The position numbers and the translations under genes were made by a program. The notes beneath the pieces are model-generated. The model searched no databases. It saw only the letters and a list, made by a program, of their open reading frames with translations, and was not told the origin of the DNA. Of a stretch of DNA of 64,000 bases, positions 20,984 through 31,905 are shown piece after piece (positions within the stretch are counted from its first letter, which is position 1; every line of letters begins with the position of its first letter). This stretch comes from Aromatoleum diolicum (GTDB lineage: Bacteria > Pseudomonadota > Gammaproteobacteria > Burkholderiales > Rhodocyclaceae), in contig NZ_WTVQ01000004.1 in NCBI RefSeq assembly GCF_012910955.1, forward strand, positions 1 through 64,000, given 5' to 3'.

Positions 20984-20987
<4 letters not shown>
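19413..20987 (+). CDS. pilS: Sensor histidine kinase PilS of the type IV pilus system
   Basis: Membrane histidine kinase (524 residues) that with PilR controls pilin transcription. Six hydrophobic helices fill roughly residues 25-185. A PAS-like region follows (NERIIRDMQDGVLVLGADG), then the H box ASMAHEIRNPL with the phosphorylated histidine around residue 322, an N box (HQILDNLIGNARRYC), and the ATP-lid motifs DDGPGI and GTGLGLYIARELAEANG. The start at ATG 19413 leaves a short cytoplasmic N-terminus. It overlaps pilR by four bases. Assignment as PilS rests on the six-helix sensor, the sigma-54 partner regulator and the nearby pilin with a sigma-54 promoter. Confidence 0.9.
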
Positions 20988-22375
<1,388 letters not shown>

Positions 22376-22474
22376 GGCGGTCGTCGCGGTCCCGAACTAT
22401 GGTCGGGTTCGAAGCTATCCACCAATCCCGCCCCCTCTTGATCCATGCCCGGGAACACGATCTTTTCCGCTTTC

Positions 22475-22861
22475 CTACCACACGGTGCGTATGCCGAACG
22501 CAGTAAAAGCCGGGTCGCAAGTCATGAGGGGCACGGATTCCAGTTCGCTTTGTGCCGCCAGCATCCTGTCGAAAGGGTCGCGATGTTCGACCGCGTAACC
22601 GCCCGCTTTCAGGCCGTGAAAATGAGTTACCGACATATGCTCAAAACCGTCGGCCGCGACTAATTCATCGAAACGGCGCACAGCATCGACTGCTTCATTC
22701 AATTTTCCGAGTCGGTGTTTCGTCGCGATTTCCCATGCGCTTGCGGCGCTGACGAGTATCGCGTTGGCTTCGTCGCTAATCGTGTCGCGTGCAATCCGTG
22801 ACAGGCGCGGGTCATCGGTGAACCACCACAGCAACGCGTGCGTATCGAGCAGAACTCTCAT
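22475..22861 (-). CDS. PIN-domain toxin (VapC-like)
   Basis: Probable toxin of a type II module, a PIN-fold ribonuclease of 128 residues. LLDTHALLWW gives the first acidic residue (Asp6), SAASAWEIATKHRLG the glutamate, and HRDPFDRMLAAQ the later aspartates, so the metal site appears complete. The ATG at 22861 overlaps the stop of the antitoxin gene by four bases. In-frame starts further upstream lie inside the antitoxin gene and are rejected. The close relation to the toxin at 31519 suggests the same subfamily. Confidence 0.88.
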   Translation of the reverse strand: MRVLLDTHALLWWFTDDPRLSRIARDTISDEANAILVSAASAWEIATKHRLGKLNEAVDAVRRFDELVAADGFEHMSVTHFHGLKAGGYAVEHRDPFDRMLAAQSELESVPLMTCDPAFTAFGIRTVW

Positions 22862-23091
22862 CGACCCTCCCATGCGTCGAGTTCCGCGTCCGGCAGCGGC
22901 TCGAAGAAGGCGTCGCCGATGCGCCCGGCGAGGCGCCCCGGGCACCGCTTCGTTGCCGCCGGTGCGAGAGGCATCAAGCGCGCATACGGTTTTCCGGCCT
23001 TGGCCAGAATGATCTCCTGTCCCGCATGGGCTCGTTCAAGCAAACGGGAAAAATGCGTCTTGGCTTCATGGACGTTCACGACAACGCTCAT
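22858..23091 (-). CDS. Phd/YefM-type antitoxin
   Basis: A 77-residue protein with the N-terminal Phd/YefM DNA-binding fold (VNVHEAKTHFSRLLERAHAGQEIILAKAGKPYARLMPL) and an acidic C-terminal tail that should neutralise the PIN toxin encoded just downstream. The four-base overlap with the toxin gene and the palindrome just upstream are typical of autoregulated toxin-antitoxin operons. Confidence 0.88.
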   Translation of the reverse strand: MSVVVNVHEAKTHFSRLLERAHAGQEIILAKAGKPYARLMPLAPAATKRCPGRLAGRIGDAFFEPLPDAELDAWEGR

Positions 23092-23399: not shown

Positions 23400-23549
23400 C
23401 ACGACCCGGACACTGACAGCGACGACGAACGCATCCGCGTGCTGCGCATGCTCGACGACACCCGCTGGAACCGATCCGAAGCCGTGCGGCGGCTGGGCAT
23501 GACGCTCCGGCAATTGCGTTACCGGCTGGAGAAGTGGGGATTGGAGTGA
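23400..23549 (+). pseudogene. Duplicated pilR 3' end (remnant, copy B)
   Basis: Encodes the last ~50 residues of PilR (DSDDERIRVLRMLDDTRWNR and the following helix-turn-helix) with two changes, A to V and the terminal M to L. Preceding bases do not encode the receiver or AAA+ domain, so this is not a working regulator. An isolated Fis-like DNA-binding domain could be made from an upstream in-frame start at 23349, but no ribosome site is visible. The copy is followed within 50 bases by the pilA-type terminator hairpin, suggesting it preserves an older pilR downstream junction. Confidence 0.85.
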
Positions 23550-23601
23550 GGCGCTCCGGGGCCGGTTTTGCGGGCTTCTGTTAAGACTCGGCCGCAACAA
23601 A

Positions 23602-23661
23602 AAAGAGACCGCCGCAGCGGTCTCTTTCGGGAAGGGGGAAGAGCCAGAGAATCGTGGTCTG
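23602..23661. repeat. Terminator-containing 60-bp element, copy 1
   Basis: Perfect 11-base stem AAAGAGACCGC / GCGGTCTCTTT (23602-23612, 23617-23627) with loop CGCA, then a purine-rich spacer and GAGAATCGTGGTCTG. The same arrangement recurs at 27956 and at 30278 (directly after pilA). It follows the pilR remnant and precedes the first IS110-type element. With A and T runs on both sides it can terminate both strands. Confidence 0.8.
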
Positions 23662-24818
23662 AAAATCATCTAACCGGCCTCCCGCCGCCGTAGTACGGCG
23701 GGGTTAAAGTGAGTTTGCGAACTGCTTTAGCCAACGGGAGACCGGAGATGAAATATAGCGGAATTGACCTTCACTCGAACAACAGTGTGGTGACCGTGAC
23801 CGACGACGAAGATCGTGTGGTGTCAGAAAAGCGACTGCCCAACGATCTACCGAAAATTCTTGGATTTCTGTCGCCGTGGCAAGACGATCTGGCGGGAGTT
23901 GTCGTTGAATCGACCTTCAACTGGTACTGGCTGGTCGATGGTCTGCAAGCGGCGGGCTTCAGGGTGCATTTGGCCAACACCACGGCGATCAAGAAGTACG
24001 AAGGGCTCAAGCACAGCGGAGACGAAGCCGATGCGCGTTACCTTGCCCACCTGCTGCGACTGGGGATACTGCCGACGGGAACCATCCTGCCGCCGGACCA
24101 ACGCGCCGTGCGCGACCTAAGCAGGAAACGCATGCAACTGGTGCGTAGTCGCACCGCCCACATTCTGGCCGTCGAGAACATTACCGCCCGCCAGCATGGT
24201 GCCCGGATCAGCAGCAACCAGGTCAAGCATCTGACGGCCGAGAGCGTCGATCAGATGCCGCTGTCGGACGATGTGGCGCTGGCGATCAAGGCCAACGTGG
24301 CGGTCATCACGACGCTTTCCACGCAGATCGACCTCCTTGAAAAGCGTCTGCAGGAAAAGGTGGTGGCGCGACCGGAGTATGGACTGCTCACCAGCGTACC
24401 GGGCATCGGTCAAGTGCTGGCGACCACGATCCTGCTGGAAACGGGGCCGATCGAGCGCTTTGCCGCCGCCGGCAATTTCGCTTCCTACGCGCGTTGCGTC
24501 GATAGCGTGCTCACCAGCAACGGCAAAAAGAAGGGGGAAGGCAACACCAAGAACGGCAACAAGTACTTGGCCTGGGCCTTCGTCGAGGCGGCTAACTTTG
24601 CGCTGCGCTACTGTGCCGAGGCGAAGCGATTCTACGAGCGAAAGAAGGCAAGACGAACAACGCGGTGGCGATCAAGGCGCTGGCGCACAAGTTGGCGCGG
24701 GCGTGCTTTCACATTCTGAAGGAGCGCAAACCGTTTGACGTGACGCGCTGCTTCACATGAGTTTCGACGGCACCGGCGAGCCAGAAATGGGGACTGGGGT
24801 TGAACCGACTGGTCTGAA
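23655..24818 (+). mobile_element. IS110-family element 1 (degenerate)
   Basis: Insertion sequence around a frameshifted IS110-family recombinase. The nine-base word TGGTCTGAA occurs at 23655-23663 and again at 24810-24818, and these are taken as tentative boundaries; IS110 elements lack terminal inverted repeats, so the ends are uncertain. The left noncoding part (about 90 bases) contains a perfect hairpin CCGCCGT-AGT-ACGGCGG just before the gene. It appears to sit in terminator element copy 1. Confidence 0.6.
23748..24760 (+). pseudogene. IS110-family transposase, frameshifted near the 3' end
   Basis: DEDD (RuvC-like) recombinase: KYSGIDLHSNN with the first Asp at residue 7, VVVESTFNWYWL with the glutamate, and HSGDEADARYLAHLL with the last two aspartates; the C-terminal Tnp domain has LLTSVPGIGQVLATTIL. 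Around 24650 the frame changes: the expected ...KAKTNNAVAIKALAHKLARAC continues in the -1 frame to a stop at 24758-24760, consistent with one lost A in the GCAAGACG run. Read in the original frame the protein ends in arginine-rich nonsense at 24719. A sequencing error or programmed shift is less likely but not excluded. Confidence 0.8.
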
Positions 24819-25146
24819 TTGGACACCGGGTGCCGTCACCCATTTGCAGCGAAAGCGGATCGCCCGCAACGCGAGCCAGCCAGGGATTGGCACCGATGTC
24901 GGTAGCCACGGGTCTGTGAGGAATCCAGTGGACGCGTTGCGGCACCAACGTTCTTCTGGGGCGGCGAAGCAGCCAGGGCGACAGCCAGATTCATCGCCGC
25001 TCGCTTGATCCTGATGGGCAGGGCCAACGCACTTAATTGTCATCGAGCGCCTCGCATATCCTAATTGCATGCGCGGAACATGAAAGCCGTTCACACTCAA
25101 GCACTTGCACAGGCATCTTGTGGACCGCGCGTAAAAGGCGTCTACT
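24819..25146. other. Gap between the two IS110-type elements, no recognised gene
   Basis: About 330 bases without a supported gene. Short open frames exist on both strands but none has a ribosome site or a familiar motif. It may be the remainder of an older insertion or the right flank of IS element 1. Confidence 0.5.
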
Positions 25147-25232
25147 CTAATGGAATGGTCGCCCCTGCCTAACCGGCATCGATGTGCCAAAGTGGGAATG
25201 GAATGTTTCCACGAACGGAAGAGGCGACCGAA

Positions 25233-26261
25233 ATGAAGATTCCGACGATTGGGATTGACCTGGCAAAGAACGTGTTTCAGGTGCACGGCGTGGATGAGCG
25301 AGGCAAGGTACTGTTGAGGAAGCAATTGCGGCGGGATCAGATGGCGGCGTTCTTTGCGAACCTCTCGCCGTGCGTAATCGGCATGGAAGCCTGCGGCAGT
25401 GCTCATTACTGGGCGAGGAAGCTTTCTGCGCTGGGACACACGGTCAAGCTGATGGCGCCGCAGTTCGTCAAACCGTATGTCAAGTCGAACAAGAACGACG
25501 GGGCGGATGCTGAAGCGATCTGCGAAGCGGTGGGGCGGCCAAACATGCACTTCGTGCCGGTGAAGACCGGTGATCAGCAAGCGGTGCTGGCACTGCATCG
25601 AGCACGACAAGGAATGGTTCAAGCACGTACCGCGCAGGCCAACCAGATTCGTGGTCTGCTGTCCGAATTCGGTATCGTCATACCGCAGGGCATCGGCAAT
25701 ATTGCCAAGCGCTTGCCGGACATTCTGGAGGACGGAGAAAACAGTTTGCCCGGTATGTTCCGCCAGCTGATCCAGCGGCTTGGCGATCACCTGAAAGAAC
25801 TGGAGCGGCAGGTCGGTGAGTTGGAAGTGCAAATCCAGCTCTGGCATCGCGAAAGCGAAGCCAGCCGAAAGTTGGCCGAGATTCCCGGCATTGGCCCGAT
25901 CACGGCCAGCGCCCTGGTAGCCTCGGTCGGCAATGCGAAGAGCTTTGAGAATGGACGACAGATGGCGGCCTGGCTCGGGCTGGTGCCACGACAGCACTCC
26001 AGCGGCGGCAAGCCGACGTTGCTGGGCATCAGCAAGCGGGGCGACATTTACTTGCGCACCTTGCTCATCCACGGCGCCCGATCGGTGATTCGAGTAGTGG
26101 AACACAAGGTCAATCAGGCGGACGAGTGGCTCAAGCGTCTCTTGGGCCGGAGGAACAAGAACGTTGCGGCGGTGGCACTGGCCAACAAAAACGCACGCAT
26201 CGTCTGGGCGCTGTTGGCGCATGATCGCCGCTACGCGGCGGGCTACGGGCCGGCAGCTTGA
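25233..26261 (+). CDS. IS110-family (IS1111 subgroup) transposase
   Basis: Intact recombinase of 342 residues. DEDD residues are visible as Asp9 (TIGIDLAKNVF), Glu52 (IGMEACGSAHYW), Asp89 and Asp92 (NDGADAEAICEA). The C-terminal Tnp domain has EIPGIGPITASALVA and GLVPRQHSSGGKPTLLGISK with the serine thought to act in recombination. The ATG at 25233 is chosen because the family begins with this MKIPTIGIDLAK stretch; an upstream in-frame ATG at 25182 lies in the noncoding left end. No frameshift or stop, so the element may still move. Confidence 0.92.
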   Translation: MKIPTIGIDLAKNVFQVHGVDERGKVLLRKQLRRDQMAAFFANLSPCVIGMEACGSAHYWARKLSALGHTVKLMAPQFVKPYVKSNKNDGADAEAICEAVGRPNMHFVPVKTGDQQAVLALHRARQGMVQARTAQANQIRGLLSEFGIVIPQGIGNIAKRLPDILEDGENSLPGMFRQLIQRLGDHLKELERQVGELEVQIQLWHRESEASRKLAEIPGIGPITASALVASVGNAKSFENGRQMAAWLGLVPRQHSSGGKPTLLGISKRGDIYLRTLLIHGARSVIRVVEHKVNQADEWLKRLLGRRNKNVAAVALANKNARIVWALLAHDRRYAAGYGPAA

Positions 26262-26490
26262 ACACGGGATATCCACAGGCACTCGCCCGCCAGCGTAGGA
26301 GGCGCGCTGGCGAGCGCCTGTGGATATCCACGAAGCATCGTTGCATAACAGCAATAGTTTCGTGACGGAGGTACTCCAAGGGTTGCTCAGGCAATCATGA
26401 AGTGATGGCAAGACAGGTAAGACCGTGGGCGGCATAACCCGGAAAAGACGTTGGAATTTCGATTCCGTTACTCTAATAGGGCGTCGTCCA
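26262..26490 (+). ncRNA. Candidate bridge/seek RNA region of the IS1111-type element
   Basis: The 3' noncoding end of IS1111-subgroup elements is known to encode the guide RNA (bridge or seek RNA) that pairs with element ends and target. Here 229 noncoding bases follow the transposase stop. They begin with a strong hairpin (26267-26329), and the word TACTCTAAT, also found at the left end, lies near 26469. No promoter or loop assignment was possible by eye; the call rests on layout and family knowledge. Confidence 0.4.
26267..26329. repeat. Long inverted repeat after the IS1111-type transposase
   Basis: Arms starting GGATATCCACAGGC and ending GCCTGTGGATATCC pair over ~24 bases with one mismatch and a four-base bulge (CTCGCC/GGCGAG and AGCG/CGCT inside). 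The loop is ~8 bases. It begins five bases after the stop codon and may end the transposase message or start the guide RNA. Confidence 0.8.
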
Positions 26491-26501
26491 GCGCATTCCA
26501 T

Positions 26502-27741
26502 CAGGGACATGGGTAACGCCCAATCAAAGTCCGGATGTATGGCTGCAATCCTCACCTTCTCGCCTCATCGACTGAACGCTTGGCGCCGATGCCCTTGATG
26601 AGTTGCCTCGCCCAGATCGAGGACCCGCGCCGGGCGGGCTACGCGTGTCGCCATGACCTGGAGGAAATCCGGGCGATCGCAGTCTGTGCAGTGTTGTGCG
26701 ACGTGAACAGCTTCGAAGACATGGCGTTCTGGGCCGAACACAAGGTGGCCTGGCTCAAGCGTTTTCTGAAGCTCGAGGGCGGCATCCCGTCCCATGACAC
26801 CTTCAATCGGGTGTTCCGCATTCTCGATCCGCGCACCTTCGAAGACGCCTTCCGGCGCTGGGTGGGCGGGATCGTGCCGGCGGTGGGCAGCGGCACGCTC
26901 GCCGTTGATGGCAAGACCGTGCGCGGCTCGGGCGACGGCAAGAACGGCCCCATCCATGTGGTGAGCGCGTTTGCCACGGAATGCGGCCTCGTACTGGGGC
27001 AGCAGAAGATCGATGGCAAGAGCAACGAGATCAGCGCCATTCCCGAGTTGCTCGACGCGCTGCTGATCAAAGGCTACCTGGTGAGCCTCGACGCGATGGG
27101 CTGCCAGAGCGAGATCGCCGCCAAGATCCTGGAGAAGAAGGCCGACTACCTGCTGGCCGTCAAAGGCAATCAGCCCGGCCTGCAGAGCGTGCTGCACGAG
27201 CGCTTCGGTGTCGCCCAGCGGCACGCGCTGGAACTGGCAGGACAATCTGCCCGGTGCTCCGAGCAATCCCACGGCCGCTTTGTCTGGCAGGGCTTCTGGG
27301 TCGCATCCAACGCGGACGAGGTGGACACCGCACGCTGGCCGGGCTGCCGGATGCTGGGCATGGTTGAATCGCTGCGCAAGGTAGGCGACAAGGAGTCGGA
27401 GCCGGAACGCCGCTACTACATCAGTTCCCGCATACTTTCGGCGCAAGCCTTCGCATCTGCCGTGCGGGCGCACTGGGGTATCGAGAACAGCGTGCATTGG
27501 ATGCTCGACGTGAATTTCCGCGAGGACGCCGCCACCGTACGCAAGGACAATGCGGCCGACAACCTCTCCCGCCTCAAGCGCATCGTCCTCAACCTCCTGA
27601 AGGTCGAGACCGCGACGGCCTCCTTCGGCAAGATCAGCCTCGCCAAGAAACGCAAACTCGCCTCTTGGGACGACGACTACAGGATGGCGATGCTCGGGAT
27701 TACGCCGATTCACGACATATAAGTGCGATGACCCTGTCCTG
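26502..27741 (+). mobile_element. ISAs1-family insertion sequence
   Basis: A single transposase gene bounded by imperfect inverted repeats: left CAGGGACATGGGTAACGC (26502-26519) and right GCGATGACCCTGTCCTG (27725-27741). The 8-10 base target duplication expected for ISAs1 was not found, so the element may have recombined after insertion or its ends are slightly different. Its left end abuts the IS1111-type element. Confidence 0.7.
26589..27722 (+). CDS. ISAs1-family transposase
   Basis: DDE transposase related to the ISAs1/H-repeat group, 377 residues from ATG 26589. IEDPRRAGYACRHDLEEIRAIAV at the N-terminus, SHDTFNRVF, the first catalytic Asp in LAVDGKTVRGS, YLVSLDAMGCQSEIA with the second, and HWGIENSVHWMLDVNFREDA with the glutamate are all present, and YLLAVKGNQPGL is typical. 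The frame is intact. A start at 26535 would add 18 residues lacking family similarity. Confidence 0.9.
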   Translation: MPLMSCLAQIEDPRRAGYACRHDLEEIRAIAVCAVLCDVNSFEDMAFWAEHKVAWLKRFLKLEGGIPSHDTFNRVFRILDPRTFEDAFRRWVGGIVPAVGSGTLAVDGKTVRGSGDGKNGPIHVVSAFATECGLVLGQQKIDGKSNEISAIPELLDALLIKGYLVSLDAMGCQSEIAAKILEKKADYLLAVKGNQPGLQSVLHERFGVAQRHALELAGQSARCSEQSHGRFVWQGFWVASNADEVDTARWPGCRMLGMVESLRKVGDKESEPERRYYISSRILSAQAFASAVRAHWGIENSVHWMLDVNFREDAATVRKDNAADNLSRLKRIVLNLLKVETATASFGKISLAKKRKLASWDDDYRMAMLGITPIHDI

Positions 27742-28118
27742 ATGGGTGTCTGGCGCGATTCGTCGCAGCCATGATTTGAAGAAACGGGCGCGATCGGCAA
27801 CTGTGAGTGGCGTAGGGAAAGATTGAAAACTGGCGGCCGGCGCCGCCATGGAATCGTTTGCTCGCTTGACGCCGGCCGGCTAATGGGTGTCCCTATTTCA
27901 TGTCCCTATTTCACTTCAAAATCGAGTCTGAGCCCATTTTTTCACTTGGAAAAGAAAAAGACCGCCGCAGCGGTCTTTTCGGGAGAAAGGGGAAGGCCGG
28001 GAAATCGTGGTCTGTCCCCCATTTTTCCCTATTTTTCCCTGTTTCCTTTTAAGTGGGTGTCCCTTTGTTTCTCAGTTTACCTCTTTACCTCTTTGTTTAT
28101 TCCTCTGGTTTCTTGTCT
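27742..28118. other. Intergenic segment with terminator element copy 2 and a pyrimidine tract
   Basis: No gene seen. It holds the duplicated words GTCCCTATTT, the motif GAGTCTGAGCCCATTT (27924-27939), terminator element copy 2 (27956-28014) and a ~100-base pyrimidine-rich tract (28015-28118) with the tandem ATTTTTCCCT repeated twice and TTTACCTC repeated twice. On the minus strand this is the 3' flank of the GT-C gene. Confidence 0.7.
27956..28014. repeat. Terminator-containing 60-bp element, copy 2
   Basis: Ten-base stem AAAAGACCGC / GCGGTCTTTT (27956-27965, 27970-27979), loop CGCA, then a purine-rich spacer and GAAATCGTGGTCTG. Same order as copies 1 and 3. On the minus strand it lies 140 bases after the GT-C gene stop and can terminate it. 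Confidence 0.8.
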
Positions 28119-30128
28119 CTATTGCGCGACGACGATGCGATTCTGTTTGTCTCCACGCGGTCGGATTTCTATGTTGGCCGCCCCTTGTTCGAGTTTTACC
28201 GGGTCGACGACAATGCTGAAATTAGGTGATGTACTGTTGTTGGCATTGATTATCCGTTCGATGACGACAGCTTCTCGCGATTTACCGTCCTCCGTTGTAT
28301 TGCCTTGGGTTCCGGTGCGCGTTTGGCTCAAGACTTCGTTGGCGCGCTCCGGATTCCCGTTGTTGATCGACCAGACTGCCTTCCAGAAAGCCGTTCTGGT
28401 GTCGCCACGGTACGCTTCGACCTTGTCCATGGCTTCGAAAGCGGCATCGAGTCGCCCCAAGTCCGAGCTGGTTTCCCCAATGATGAACCATACATAGGCC
28501 CCAAGAAACTCAGCTTTGTTGATCTGCGGGTTCTGGATGAGTTGTGAAGCGACGTCGTTGATTGCTTCGATGGTTAGCCCGCTGCACTCGCCCGACTGGG
28601 CAAGCCCTTGGAGATACGTCAGGGTGTCAAGGGATAGGCGTTCGATGATGGCTGAACGGGCTGACTGGCGAACTGCCATTAACTGCTCGGTGACGTCTTC
28701 CCCTGCCATGCAGCGCATCTTGAGTGCCTGCAGTCTGAGAGCGAGGTAGGATGGGTTCCGTCGAAAACCCTCGGTCAATTCCCGCTCCGCTTGCACGAAC
28801 TGTCCTTGTCTGCTCCAGGTGGCCGCGGCCATCAGGCGCGCTCGGACGGAATCCGGAAAATGACTGGTCCATACGATAGCGCCGAGGGTCGGATCGCCCC
28901 AAGGGGCCGCAATTCCGCTCGTGATAAATGCGGAAGCCGCTAAGGTTCCAATCCCGGCCGCCGCCTTGGCGCCGGGTTTAAGCGAAGGCAGGCCGCTGAC
29001 GAGCAACATGTAGGCAAGCGCGATTACAGCGGCTGACGCCAAATAGTTGCGATGCTCGAAATAGAGCTCCAGCGGAAATATGGACGATTCGAGTGCGTGG
29101 CACGCAAAGAAACTCAGGACGCAGAGCGCCGCGACCGGATACTTGCGACGCACCCGTATTGCGAGCGCAAAGGCCAATCCAACTGCAACTAACGAAAAAA
29201 GGGCAACGGGTTCCGAGAATATGTTGCTGACCACTGAAAACTGGTCGTTGAAGATACCGATCTTCTGTGCCGAGGGGGCGAGTGTGTTCTTGACATAAGT
29301 CCCTACTACGAGCGGTTGCGTGAGTATCCGTTCCCACCACGTGAAGGGCTGCCATGCGAACGAATCGACGTATTTCGACCATGGAATCAGATGTGTGGCA
29401 AGCAGGACAAAGTAGGGTGCCAGCATTGTGACCCTCCATGCGCGGATGAAGGGTGTTGCAGCGTTAGCGCCGAAGATCGTGAACTCGAATGCAAGCACTA
29501 TCAGCGGGAGGGTGGCGGCATTCTCCTTTGCGAGAGAGCCGATGATCGCGCCTACCGCCAAGCCTCCAAGCATGAGCCCGATGCCGGCGCGCTTTTCCTC
29601 GTAATAGCGATGCCGACCCGCGACATAAGCGATGAGGCCGACCAGCATGAAGAATGTGCTGAGAAGCGTCATCCTCTGCACGACGTAAAGTGTCGTCGCC
29701 GTGTGTGCGGGATTCACCAGCCAGAGTGCGGAGATCCAGAATGCGGCTGAGCGAGAGATTGGGCTCGCAATCGCGACAATTCGCGAAACGAGCAGGTAGA
29801 TCAGCAAGCCATTGCAAAGGTGCAAGGCGAGATTCGTGATGCGAAAGGGGCCGGCATCGTCCGGCCAGTTGAGCGCGTCGAGCAGAAAACTGGCCATCGA
29901 TATGGGCCGCCCGGATGGGCCTGAGTGATTGCCTGACACGAATACCCAAGCCGATTCGAGTGAAGGCGATGCGAGAAACGCATCGAGTTTGTTCAGGTTC
30001 GAAAAGTCATCAAGTTGGAAATCGCCGGCGAGTCCGGGGAAATATGCCAGAACCGTCAGAAGACACGCAGCGGCTAGCGCTGCGAGCGTTAGGATAGAGC
30101 GACGAGTGACTGCGGCTTTGTTTATCAT
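28119..30128 (-). CDS. GT-C-like membrane glycosyltransferase with C-terminal helical repeat region, next to pilA
   Basis: A 669-residue inner membrane protein. The first helix is followed by GLAGDFQLDDFSNLN, whose Asp pair (~40-41) in the first periplasmic loop is the usual catalytic motif of GT-C transferases that use lipid-linked sugars. About ten further helices reach residue ~420; the last ~230 residues are soluble and helical, TPR-like (QGQFVQAERELTEGFRRNP). It lies immediately downstream of pilA on the same strand, the place of pilin glycosyltransferases such as TfpW in some pseudomonads, so pilin O-glycosylation is the leading guess. The start at 30128 is uncertain (weak ribosome site; upstream frame open to 30233). 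Base composition looks less GC-rich than the core genes. Confidence 0.7.
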   Translation of the reverse strand: MINKAAVTRRSILTLAALAAACLLTVLAYFPGLAGDFQLDDFSNLNKLDAFLASPSLESAWVFVSGNHSGPSGRPISMASFLLDALNWPDDAGPFRITNLALHLCNGLLIYLLVSRIVAIASPISRSAAFWISALWLVNPAHTATTLYVVQRMTLLSTFFMLVGLIAYVAGRHRYYEEKRAGIGLMLGGLAVGAIIGSLAKENAATLPLIVLAFEFTIFGANAATPFIRAWRVTMLAPYFVLLATHLIPWSKYVDSFAWQPFTWWERILTQPLVVGTYVKNTLAPSAQKIGIFNDQFSVVSNIFSEPVALFSLVAVGLAFALAIRVRRKYPVAALCVLSFFACHALESSIFPLELYFEHRNYLASAAVIALAYMLLVSGLPSLKPGAKAAAGIGTLAASAFITSGIAAPWGDPTLGAIVWTSHFPDSVRARLMAAATWSRQGQFVQAERELTEGFRRNPSYLALRLQALKMRCMAGEDVTEQLMAVRQSARSAIIERLSLDTLTYLQGLAQSGECSGLTIEAINDVASQLIQNPQINKAEFLGAYVWFIIGETSSDLGRLDAAFEAMDKVEAYRGDTRTAFWKAVWSINNGNPERANEVLSQTRTGTQGNTTEDGKSREAVVIERIINANNSTSPNFSIVVDPVKLEQGAANIEIRPRGDKQNRIVVAQ

Positions 30129-30277
30129 TGCAAGCGAAGTGTTGCGGTTTCCAGTCCGTATCTCTTGCCATAGCAACAGGCGCACGATGACGGTTTGGAT
30201 AGTGGCAGAGTCAAGGCATAGCTTCGGGGGCACTACACTGACCGAAAATAGTAGTAAAAACTTGTACTCATAAAGAA

Positions 30278-30340
30278 AAGAGACCGCCGCAGCGGTCTCC
30301 TTCGTTCAAAAGCTGTGGGGAAAACCGGAGAATCGTGGTT
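30278..30340. repeat. Terminator-containing element, copy 3 (pilA terminator)
   Basis: Stem GAGACCGC / GCGGTCTC (30280-30287, 30292-30299) with loop CGCA. Read on the minus strand the right arm side comes first and the stem is followed by TCTTTTCTTT, a proper rho-independent terminator ~55-75 bases after the pilA stop. The GAGAATCGTGGT tail lies between the hairpin and pilA. This is probably the parent of copies 1 and 2. Confidence 0.82.
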
Positions 30341-30355
30341 TATCCCAAACTTCCC

Positions 30356-30802
30356 TTAGCGGCATACTGACGGACGATACTTCGCATTGAGCGTCCCGGC
30401 CGTGCAGGCCCAGGAAATCGAACCGCCAGTCGGAATCGTCGAGGCTGTCGCCGTTCCTGCCAAAGCACTCGCACCCGAAGTTGGCACCATTTCAATCGTT
30501 TTCCCGCCATCGATTGCCGTCGTCGTCGTGATGGTAATCTTGCCAGTCGTTTGGTCGATTGCCACCGACGCGATGTTCGGAGTCGCCGAGGGTGCCGACC
30601 AGCCAGCATCAAAGTTCTTGCCGTTTGCAGCGTTTTCCGCGACTGAAACTTTGGCCGACGAGGCGAGAGTCAAACCCTCGCTCACCTTCGCCCGCACCGT
30701 GTAATCCTGATACGCCGGCAGCGCCACCGCCGCCAGAATGCCGATAATCGCCACGACGATCATCAGTTCGATCAGGGTAAAGCCTTGCTGAACCTTTTTC
30801 AT
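30356..30802 (-). CDS. pilA: Type IV major pilin PilA
   Basis: Prepilin of 148 residues. The leader MKKVQQG is cut before the phenylalanine of [20 protein letters not shown], the classic type IVa N-terminal helix with Glu5. [14 protein letters not shown] ends the helix. The C-terminal disulfide loop is formed by the cysteines in WACTAG and PSVCR. A serine/threonine/alanine-rich head ([23 protein letters not shown]) offers possible O-glycosylation sites. CAAGGAG lies upstream of ATG 30802. The sigma-54 promoter and PilS/PilR nearby indicate regulation; the GT-C gene follows on the same strand after the terminator. Confidence 0.96.
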
Positions 30803-31273: not shown

Positions 31274-31522
31274 ATGCAAACCGTCAATATGCTGCAAGCC
31301 AAGTCCACGCTATCCCGCTTGGTGGAGGCCATCGAACAAGGGCAAGAACGCGAAATCGTTATCGCCCGGAATGGACGCCCCGCGGCCCGACTGGTGCCGA
31401 TCGATGCGGCTCCGGCAGGCAAACGCATCGGCGTGGCAAAAGGCATGTTCGAGGTGCCGGACAGTATCGACGCCCACAACGATGAGGTGGCTCGATTGTT
31501 CATGGGCGGGGTGCAGTCTTGA
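31274..31522 (+). CDS. Phd/YefM-type antitoxin
   Basis: An 82-residue antitoxin with N-terminal VNMLQAKSTLSRLVEAIEQG followed by REIVIARNGRPAARLVPID, the Phd/YefM fold, and an acidic C-terminal part (EVPDSIDAHNDEVARLF). GGGAG lies just before the ATG. It overlaps the PIN toxin gene by four bases. Confidence 0.9.
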   Translation: MQTVNMLQAKSTLSRLVEAIEQGQEREIVIARNGRPAARLVPIDAAPAGKRIGVAKGMFEVPDSIDAHNDEVARLFMGGVQS

Positions 31523-31905
31523 ACCTGCTGCTCGATACGCACGTCGCCCTGTGGGCGATCACGGACAGTCCGAAACTACCGCAGAAGGCGCGTGATGTGA
31601 TCGCGTCGCCCAAAACGACGGTATGGGTCAGTGCCGCAAGCGTATGGGAAATTGCGATCAAACATGCGCTGGGTCGAGGCGATATGCCTGTGTCGAGCCA
31701 GGACGCGGTGCGCTATTTCCAGGAGTCCGGGTATCGCATCCTTCCCATCGAGGCAGAACACGCGGTCGCTGTTGAGGACTTGTCCGCGCATCACCAAGAC
31801 CCCTTTGACCGGATGTTGGTGGCACAGGCGCTTGTGGAGCCGATGCGGTTGATGACTCACGATCCGCTGGTGGCGCTCTACAACGACACGGCCATCAAGA
31901 TTTGA
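31519..31905 (+). CDS. PIN-domain toxin (VapC-like)
   Basis: A 128-residue PIN ribonuclease toxin starting with TTG (TTGA overlap with the antitoxin stop). LLLDTHVALWAI supplies Asp6, SAASVWEIAIKHALG the glutamate and HHQDPFDRMLVAQAL the later aspartates. Same length and motif set as the toxin at 22475, so the two modules are relatives flanking the pilin region. Confidence 0.9.
   Translation: MNLLLDTHVALWAITDSPKLPQKARDVIASPKTTVWVSAASVWEIAIKHALGRGDMPVSSQDAVRYFQESGYRILPIEAEHAVAVEDLSAHHQDPFDRMLVAQALVEPMRLMTHDPLVALYNDTAIKI

Follow-up and report, generated by a model that had tools for sequence, protein, structure and literature searches.

Introduction

TfpW of Pseudomonas paraeruginosa PA7 is a pilin D-arabinofuranose (D-Araf) transferase that acts on group IV pilins and is encoded directly behind pilA. 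The order pilA, tfpW, tfpX is described in the part of PMC12369383 available to us, and the corresponding part of PMC11841053 reports that tfpX is not needed for modification; in these portions of the two papers TfpW is called a pilin glycosyltransferase or an oligosaccharyltransferase. PilO/TfpO, TfpM, PglS and PglL are O-oligosaccharyltransferases of the Wzy_C type, and according to the accessible portion of PMC12645811, TfpO, TfpM and PglS are often encoded near their target. Such enzymes matter because pilin glycosylation by TfpO and TfpW shields pili from phages (PMC11841053, same portion) and because O-oligosaccharyltransferases serve as glycoengineering tools (PMC12645811, same portion). 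Here we describe a gene directly after pilA in Aromatoleum diolicum (NCBI RefSeq assembly GCF_012910955.1, contig NZ_WTVQ01000004.1, positions 1 to 64,000; this whole stretch of 64,000 nucleotides is the window below). It encodes a membrane protein with a predicted GT-C fold and a C-terminal TPR domain (the GT-C/TPR protein). Our best reading, predicted from its fold, its conserved residues and its recurrent linkage to pilin genes, is that it is a pilin glycosyltransferase using a polyprenyl-phosphate-linked sugar, and thus a variant of the TfpW kind.

30356 to 30802, minus strand: pilA, type IV major pilin of 148 residues, the proposed acceptor (Pfam Pilin 3.1e-16, N_methyl 1.2e-10)
28119 to 30128, minus strand: GT-C/TPR protein of 669 residues, the proposed pilin glycosyltransferase (AlphaFold2 model, relatives, TfpW homology)

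Both frames were confirmed, 227 nucleotides apart on the minus strand, which agrees with a preliminary description, made from the sequence alone, that placed a membrane protein directly after pilA. The frame of the GT-C/TPR gene has a GTG start and covers 28119-30233 on the minus strand (704 residues); we used the ATG at 30128, which gives the 669-residue protein beginning MINKAAV.

Results

The protein is predicted to combine a GT-C membrane domain with a periplasmic TPR domain

We modelled the protein with AlphaFold2 from an alignment of 62 family members (alignment A1). The full-length model reached a mean confidence (pLDDT) of 89.4 and a predicted template-modelling score (pTM) of 0.89, and the membrane domain modelled alone (residues 1-425) reached 89.6 and 0.92. 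Two domains were assigned.

28854 to 30128, minus strand: GT-C membrane domain (residues 1-425) with some 11 membrane segments (own model, structure matches, hydropathy)
28233 to 28853, minus strand: TPR domain at the C-terminus, approximately residues 426-632, predicted to be periplasmic (model, structure and profile matches)

A VIA-align search with the membrane domain returned 43 entries with Z scores of 19.1-9.5, and the next match, a receptor, scored 4.9. By title, 39 of the 43 are GT-C enzymes, among them Stt3 (Z 19.1), Pmt2 (18.6) and ArnT (16.2); the other four are GPI-transamidase chains, in which PIG-U is presumably GT-C-like. GT-C enzymes also came first with the full-length model (Stt3 8age, Z 19.1, root-mean-square deviation 4.7 over 328 residues; Pmt2 6p25, Z 17.7), with the Stt3 and Pmt2 matches spanning residues 3-423, and the tail of this model matched TPR proteins, including the pilus factor PilW (2vq2, Z 12.2). 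Foldseek likewise ranked GT-C enzymes first for the membrane domain, none of them at E <= 0.001 (best Pmt4, 2.2e-3), so the fold assignment rests on VIA-align. A Foldseek search with the whole model listed TPR and other repeat proteins and was discarded as fold evidence. We conclude that the membrane domain has, with high confidence in the model, a GT-C fold; the polytopic GT-C protein proposed earlier is thereby upheld, with domain Z scores up to 19.1 to enzymes of that fold. A predicted fold foreign to GT-C enzymes, which the preliminary description had named as a refutation, was thus not obtained.

Sequence profiles recognised mainly the tail. Against Pfam, the protein alone matched TPR_19 at 2.5e-4, below the cut-off, and no family above it; there was no NCBIfam match near the cut-off, and phmmer found no match for the single sequence among solved structures. 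With the family profile, the structure matches listed (60 of 130) were TPR or other repeat proteins. The 62 family members matched 12 Pfam families at 1e-3, all of them TPR-type repeats, and TPR_19 was found in 20 of the 62. The helical repeat of TPR type noted at the C-terminus in the preliminary description is thus supported by the helices of the model, by the structure matches and by the sub-threshold TPR_19 match. Hydropathy gave about 11 membrane segments (overlapping ones merged by eye), a positive N-terminus and a 262-residue tail, and from this layout the loop carrying the Asp pair described below and the tail are predicted to be periplasmic.

Two conserved elements stand out in the membrane domain.

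30006 to 30011, minus strand: aspartates D40 and D41 in the first periplasmic loop, a predicted catalytic or metal site (invariant in 62 of 62 rows, window row included)
29043 to 29069, minus strand: E354-Y362, ELYFEHRNY, family signature (eight of nine positions invariant in 62 of 62 rows, L355 nearly so)

The Asp pair stands after the first hydrophobic segment, in agreement with the first periplasmic loop named in the preliminary description, and a motif of the ELYFEHRNY type occurs in all 80 related loci introduced below. The positions invariant in alignment A1 are D40, D41, R74, H103, P140, Q151, R152, K201, Y278, E347, L353, E354, Y356, F357, E358, H359, R360, N361, Y362, W410, S427 and R429. 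In a quick tree the window row sits on a long branch and its placement is unsure; its top identity to any tree row is 31%. In the same tree, a gene from another genome of the window's family lies close to a Thauera phenylacetica gene (branches 0.05 and 0.12).

Relatives recur behind pilin genes in many genomes

We then assessed the neighbourhoods of related loci from GTDB genomes. Relatives were encoded in 473 of 520 candidate stretches, and the best 80 of the 473 were used. Neighbours were counted by profile search, taking a pilin gene that ended at most 500 bp upstream on the same strand and a GT2 gene that started at most 1 kb downstream. The upstream pilin was present at 51 of the 80 related loci; for the window's family the count was 21 of 29, and for Pseudomonadaceae 23 of 24. 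The corresponding numbers for the downstream GT2 were 30 of 80, 22 of 29 and 18 of 24, and for both neighbours together 26 of 80, 19 of 29 and 17 of 24. The Pseudomonadaceae set comprises 24 of the 25 loci L115-L139 (one was unrecognised by the script), with L140-L144 left out; L115 and L023 are the same Pseudomonas gene, which is counted both here and among the 80 related loci. It derives from a profile search of 398 Pseudomonadaceae genomes, 40 of which matched at 1e-5; the weakest 16 matches (in 15 further genomes, L140 onwards) were tail-only or fragments and did not enter the neighbour counts. A single-protein search of the Pseudomonas genus of L023 matched 1 of 298 genomes, that of L023 itself. 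Earlier counts from a motif script were lower (39/75; 48/80 for pilins and 24/76 for GT2) and were replaced by the profile-based ones.

On the downstream side, none of the 76 loci with room for one had a same-strand pilin within 500 bp. On the tree, the pilin label was clustered, requiring 11 changes compared to 25.9 when shuffled, and linked loci occur in Pseudomonadaceae, Rhodanobacteraceae, Moraxellaceae, Methylococcaceae and further groups. With 51 of 80 loci upstream against 0 of 76 downstream, the link to pilin is not chance. A search of the openly licensed literature, judged by titles and abstract openings, found no paper on a pilA-GT-C/TPR-GT2 cassette.

Some loci carry further genes of related type. 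In Rhodanobacter, Dyella and Solimonas loci a second GT-C gene appears to follow the first. The next frame starts like a distinct second GT-C protein with its own DD motif in L041, L051, L057, L059 and L065 and likewise in L068, L069, L071, L081 and L084; these frames were read from the sequence, and the one in L065 was also tested.

The preliminary description had also pointed to Ser/Thr-rich stretches in the PilA head as possible acceptors. Ser and Thr are indeed present, at 25 of 88 residues, but at 0.284 the content is not unusual against 0.237 +/- 0.043 in 44 pilins whose genes precede those of family members, in a few cases at distances of up to 2.7 kb. We therefore rejected Ser/Thr content as a sign of the acceptor; it does not discriminate.

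A frequent GT2 partner suggests a polyprenyl-phosphate-linked donor

The next-downstream genes of family members matched PF00535 in 29 of 57 cases. From these downstream genes we picked, by eye, a 29-row GT2 alignment (A4), which also includes a GT2 gene of the window's own genome on contig C98. The partner genes form a single tight family, whose members share 51-79% identity with the top row of A4, and its profile matched the solved structures of ArnC (2e-26), DPM synthase (3e-25) and sll0501 (9e-23), the last of which we take to be GtrB-like. Its NCBIfam matches were polyprenyl-phosphate sugar synthases of archaea and bacteria, none of which reached the curated cut-off. A frequent partner of the lipid-monophosphate sugar synthase type points to single-sugar donors, and its presence beside many relatives suggests, indirectly, that the GT-C/TPR protein may use a polyprenyl-phosphate-linked donor.

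The window's genome has one outstanding GT2 of the partner type (475 bits, the next at 87), the gene on C98; none of the nine GT2 matches of the genome lies on the window's contig. The window enzyme may thus borrow a lipid-linked sugar made by the C98 enzymes. On C98 itself (L149:3790-10544) we observed three tandem GT-C paralogues divergent from the partner-type GT2, with no pilin seen nearby; TPRs were tested in one of the three. The GT2 and the paralogues lie near a GDP-mannose 4,6-dehydratase-type gene and methyltransferase genes.

TfpW is a distant homologue that probably uses a different donor

Next, we compared the protein with TfpW of PA7, where the locus reads pilB / pilA - TfpW (641 residues) - TfpX (245 residues) - tRNA-Thr. 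Profile comparison (hhalign) of alignment A1 with TfpW gave a probability of 97.9% and an E value of 3.7e-13 over 415 columns at 18% identity, with the DD motifs aligned. On this evidence TfpW is a distant homologue of the window protein. Both have the DD motif in the first loop, and TfpW too has about 200 residues after its last membrane helix. Pfam found no TPR in PA7 TfpW itself and did find TPRs in one of its three closest relatives, as well as in three relatives that are shorter and linked to pilA. Contrary to the preliminary description, the TPR tail therefore does not set the protein apart from TfpW, and since TfpW is a distant homologue, the GT-C/TPR architecture is probably not new. 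Some family proteins may already have been counted by others as TfpW homologues, because PMC11841053, in the part at hand, speaks of TfpW-encoding species generally. The three shorter pilA-linked proteins are Pseudomonadaceae proteins of 540-548 residues with a DD motif and TPRs (L133:1480-3126, L148:3306-4931, L146:3628-5250); two of the three are followed by tRNA-Thr, and they share 15-18% identity with TfpW.

The two systems differ in signature, with ELYFEHRNY in the window family and GHERF in TfpW, and in the genes that accompany them. PA7 has tfpX adjoining tfpW and a presumed D-Araf cluster (UbiA, flavin-dependent oxidase and short-chain dehydrogenase/reductase genes at 6.46 Mb), whereas the window family has the GT2 partner instead and no tfpX stands beside the window's GT-C gene. 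The DprE1-type protein of PA7, which scores 1421 bits in PA7 itself, found in the window's genome one weak partial match (33% identity, 146 residues, 32.5 bits), so the D-Araf donor pathway was not recovered there and the protein was not filed as TfpW. Conversely, PA7 lacks a close copy of the partner GT2: its best match reaches 81 bits, compared to 475 in the window's genome. PF04030 (ALO) was tried as a DprE1 marker; it is absent from the window's genome, and it was dropped because its sole PA7 match, at 6.31 Mb, falls outside the presumed D-Araf cluster. From the weak DprE1 match here and the lack of a close partner GT2 in PA7, the window protein is probably homologous in kind to TfpW and different in donor.

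The pilA locus looks like an exchangeable slot

Within the genus, a PilA homologue was found in 17 of 17 genomes (best matches in the others at 43-62% identity) and the window's GT-C/TPR gene in one, its own. Nine other genus genomes have three weaker GT-C matches apiece, clustered as on C98, with best E values between 1e-25 and 1e-30. We read longer stretches around a pilA in 12 of the 16 other genomes (for G101 and G138 the stretch was centred on the PilA match ranked second), and four of them carry another candidate modification gene behind pilA.

L191:1469-3220 and L192:1564-3204: PglL-type genes (Wzy_C, Wzy_C_2, PglL_A) behind pilA in G823 and G830
L193:1928-4870 and L194:2479-5427: TPR/GT41 genes behind pilA in G193 and G138

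The RND-pump gene that flanks the window's pilA also flanks pilA in G823, G830 and G193 (frames read) and was not seen for G138. In the other eight stretches we saw by eye transposase-like frames or no clear gene, and one that was scanned gave no match. The pilA locus thus looks like an exchangeable pilin-modification slot.

In the window, the G+C content in 1-kb windows is 0.54-0.58 at 27.5-31.5 kb and 0.58-0.64 where the transposase genes lie; at 20-22 kb and at 33-40 kb it is 0.65-0.73. Two further features bracket the GT-C/TPR gene.

23709 to 27722, plus strand: three transposase genes (Pfam: two IS110, one DDE_Tnp_1), 3' of the GT-C gene, where many relatives have the partner GT2
30276 to 30304, minus strand: GC-rich hairpin in the 227-nucleotide gap behind pilA, which may be an attenuating terminator (repeat family D3, three copies in the region)

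Between the gene and the transposases, at 27801-28118, there is no minus-strand frame of at least 90 residues. The low G+C, the insertion sequences and the sporadic presence agree with acquisition; the gene was either gained here or lost elsewhere. The earlier claim of acquired DNA with insertion sequences nearby therefore stands for the three transposase genes, the low G+C and the presence in 1 of 17 genomes, while loss elsewhere is allowed as well. The three copies of the D3 hairpin lie 3' of a repeated pilR end (23601-23629), 3' of the GT-C gene (27954-27982) and 3' of pilA (30276-30304), and the last was absent from the terminator list of a pattern scan. The accessible part of PMC11841053 reports attenuation of accessory genes by a terminator 3' of the pilin gene. 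We also observed that the 3' end of a pilR-like gene (20984-22375), at 22226-22382, is repeated 1174 bases downstream (23400-23556, 96% identity), that a PIN-domain gene (22475-22945, minus strand) lies between the two copies, and that a second PIN-domain gene lies upstream of pilA (31519-31905).

Discussion

We consider it likely that the window encodes a pilin-dedicated GT-C glycosyltransferase that uses a GT2-made lipid-linked sugar, probably not D-Araf, and holds PilA with its TPR tail. A cytoplasmic GT2, here the one encoded on C98, would load a single sugar onto polyprenyl phosphate, and the product would be flipped to the periplasm. There the predicted GT-C domain, with its conserved D40 and D41, would bind the lipid-linked sugar, the head of PilA would be held by the TPR tail or recruited by it near the assembly site, and sugars would go onto Ser/Thr of PilA. 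The sugar is probably not the D-arabinofuranose added by TfpW. Acceptor, donor and the role of the TPRs are inferred.

Several observations weigh against this proposal. The window gene has no adjacent GT2, and a possible terminator stands ahead of it. Its end branch is 1.82 compared to a median of 0.54, and of the 77 columns that are conserved in 85% of the remaining 61 members, 11 carry another residue in the window protein (H139N and R260Q among them). A direct BLASTP comparison with TfpW gives a weak match, its best segment having E 1e-5 and 22% identity. The fold by itself does not, at the level of the models, separate a single-sugar from an en bloc transferase, with Stt3 at 19.1 and Pmt2 at 18.6 tied. 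Finally, 29 of the 80 relatives have no pilin within 500 bp upstream; a few of these stand at contig ends and many are from Woeseiaceae. Not all of the family need therefore act on pilins, and part of it may act on other targets.

The long branch and the changed columns would fit a decayed or orphaned copy, a former pilA-GT-C-GT2 cassette that was cut from its GT2 by insertion sequences and is drifting without modifying pilin today; the lack of a GT2 match on the contig and the three transposase genes at the place expected for it fit as well. We regard this as unlikely, since the frame is open over 669 codons, 66 of the 77 conserved columns are kept, the fold is confident, D40 D41 and the EHRN signature are intact, and a partner-type GT2 is present elsewhere in the genome. 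It is quite improbable that the enzyme instead moves a preassembled lipid-diphosphate-linked glycan, such as an O-antigen unit, en bloc to pilin as TfpO, PglL and Stt3/PglB do. Stt3-type structures do rank with PMT-type ones, and PMC12369383, in the part available, calls TfpW an oligosaccharyltransferase, but the GT2 that often accompanies the family resembles lipid-monophosphate sugar synthases. Moreover, Pfam found no Wzy_C or O-antigen ligase domain in the window protein or the 62 members, and profile comparison with a PglL-type protein gave a probability of 1.7%, which bears out the distinction drawn earlier from the PilO/TfpO/PglL class.

The relatives that lack a nearby pilin, together with the C98 paralogues that stand near sugar-nucleotide and methyltransferase genes with no pilin seen, could instead point to another acceptor (a polysaccharide, a lipid or another envelope protein) and to a place beside pilA for other reasons. 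The recurrence of the pilin link over several families, seen on one side only (0 of 76 downstream), makes this very improbable for the window protein. Finally, profile homology to PA7 TfpW would be expected of a TfpW-like arabinosyltransferase using decaprenyl-phospho-D-arabinofuranose; with the DprE1-type enzyme represented by one weak partial match and the partner GT2 found here and not closely in PA7, we give this scarcely any credence. A pilin glycosyltransferase with a single lipid-linked sugar, probably not D-Araf, accounts best for the observations.

The family is widespread and largely unstudied, and it often travels with its own sugar-donor maker. It matches only TPR-type Pfam models, yet it stands behind a pilin gene in many Gammaproteobacteria and some Betaproteobacteria. 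The GT2 partner leads to a direct prediction of the donor that can be tested, and the mixed enzymes behind pilA within one genus suggest that pilus decoration is exchanged as a unit. Tentatively, and with somewhat more doubt than conviction, we propose that the arrangement pilA - GT-C/TPR - GT2 forms a class of pilin glycosylation that is both widespread and self-contained, a bacterial counterpart of TMTC O-mannosylation: the GT2 would make the lipid-linked sugar, the GT-C protein would add it and the TPR tail would give pilin specificity. TfpW would then be the studied outlier, with a D-Araf pathway replacing the GT2, and pilin loci would swap this module with PglL- and GT41-type ones.

Among known systems, the PilO/TfpO, TfpM, PglS and PglL enzymes differ from this class by their Wzy_C domain. 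The likeness to TMTC1-4, the O-mannosyltransferases of the animal endoplasmic reticulum, is one of description: these share a GT-C part with 11 segments, a DD motif in the first lumenal loop and lumenal C-terminal TPRs. The available part of PMC7801869 gives this description and mentions full-length prokaryotic homologues. By model and hydropathy the window protein has the same combination of a GT-C domain with C-terminal TPRs on the far side of the membrane, its topology being predicted. DUF1736, the Pfam segment of TMTC, gave no match in the 62 members at 1e-3, and the acceptor differs, cadherin for TMTC and predicted pilin here. In the three-component periplasmic glycosylation systems of the GtrA/GtrB/Gtr and GT136 types, described in the accessible part of PMC11127046, a polyprenyl-phosphate sugar synthase is paired with a GT-C enzyme, as here; the acceptor in those systems is O antigen, whereas for the window protein it is predicted to be pilin.

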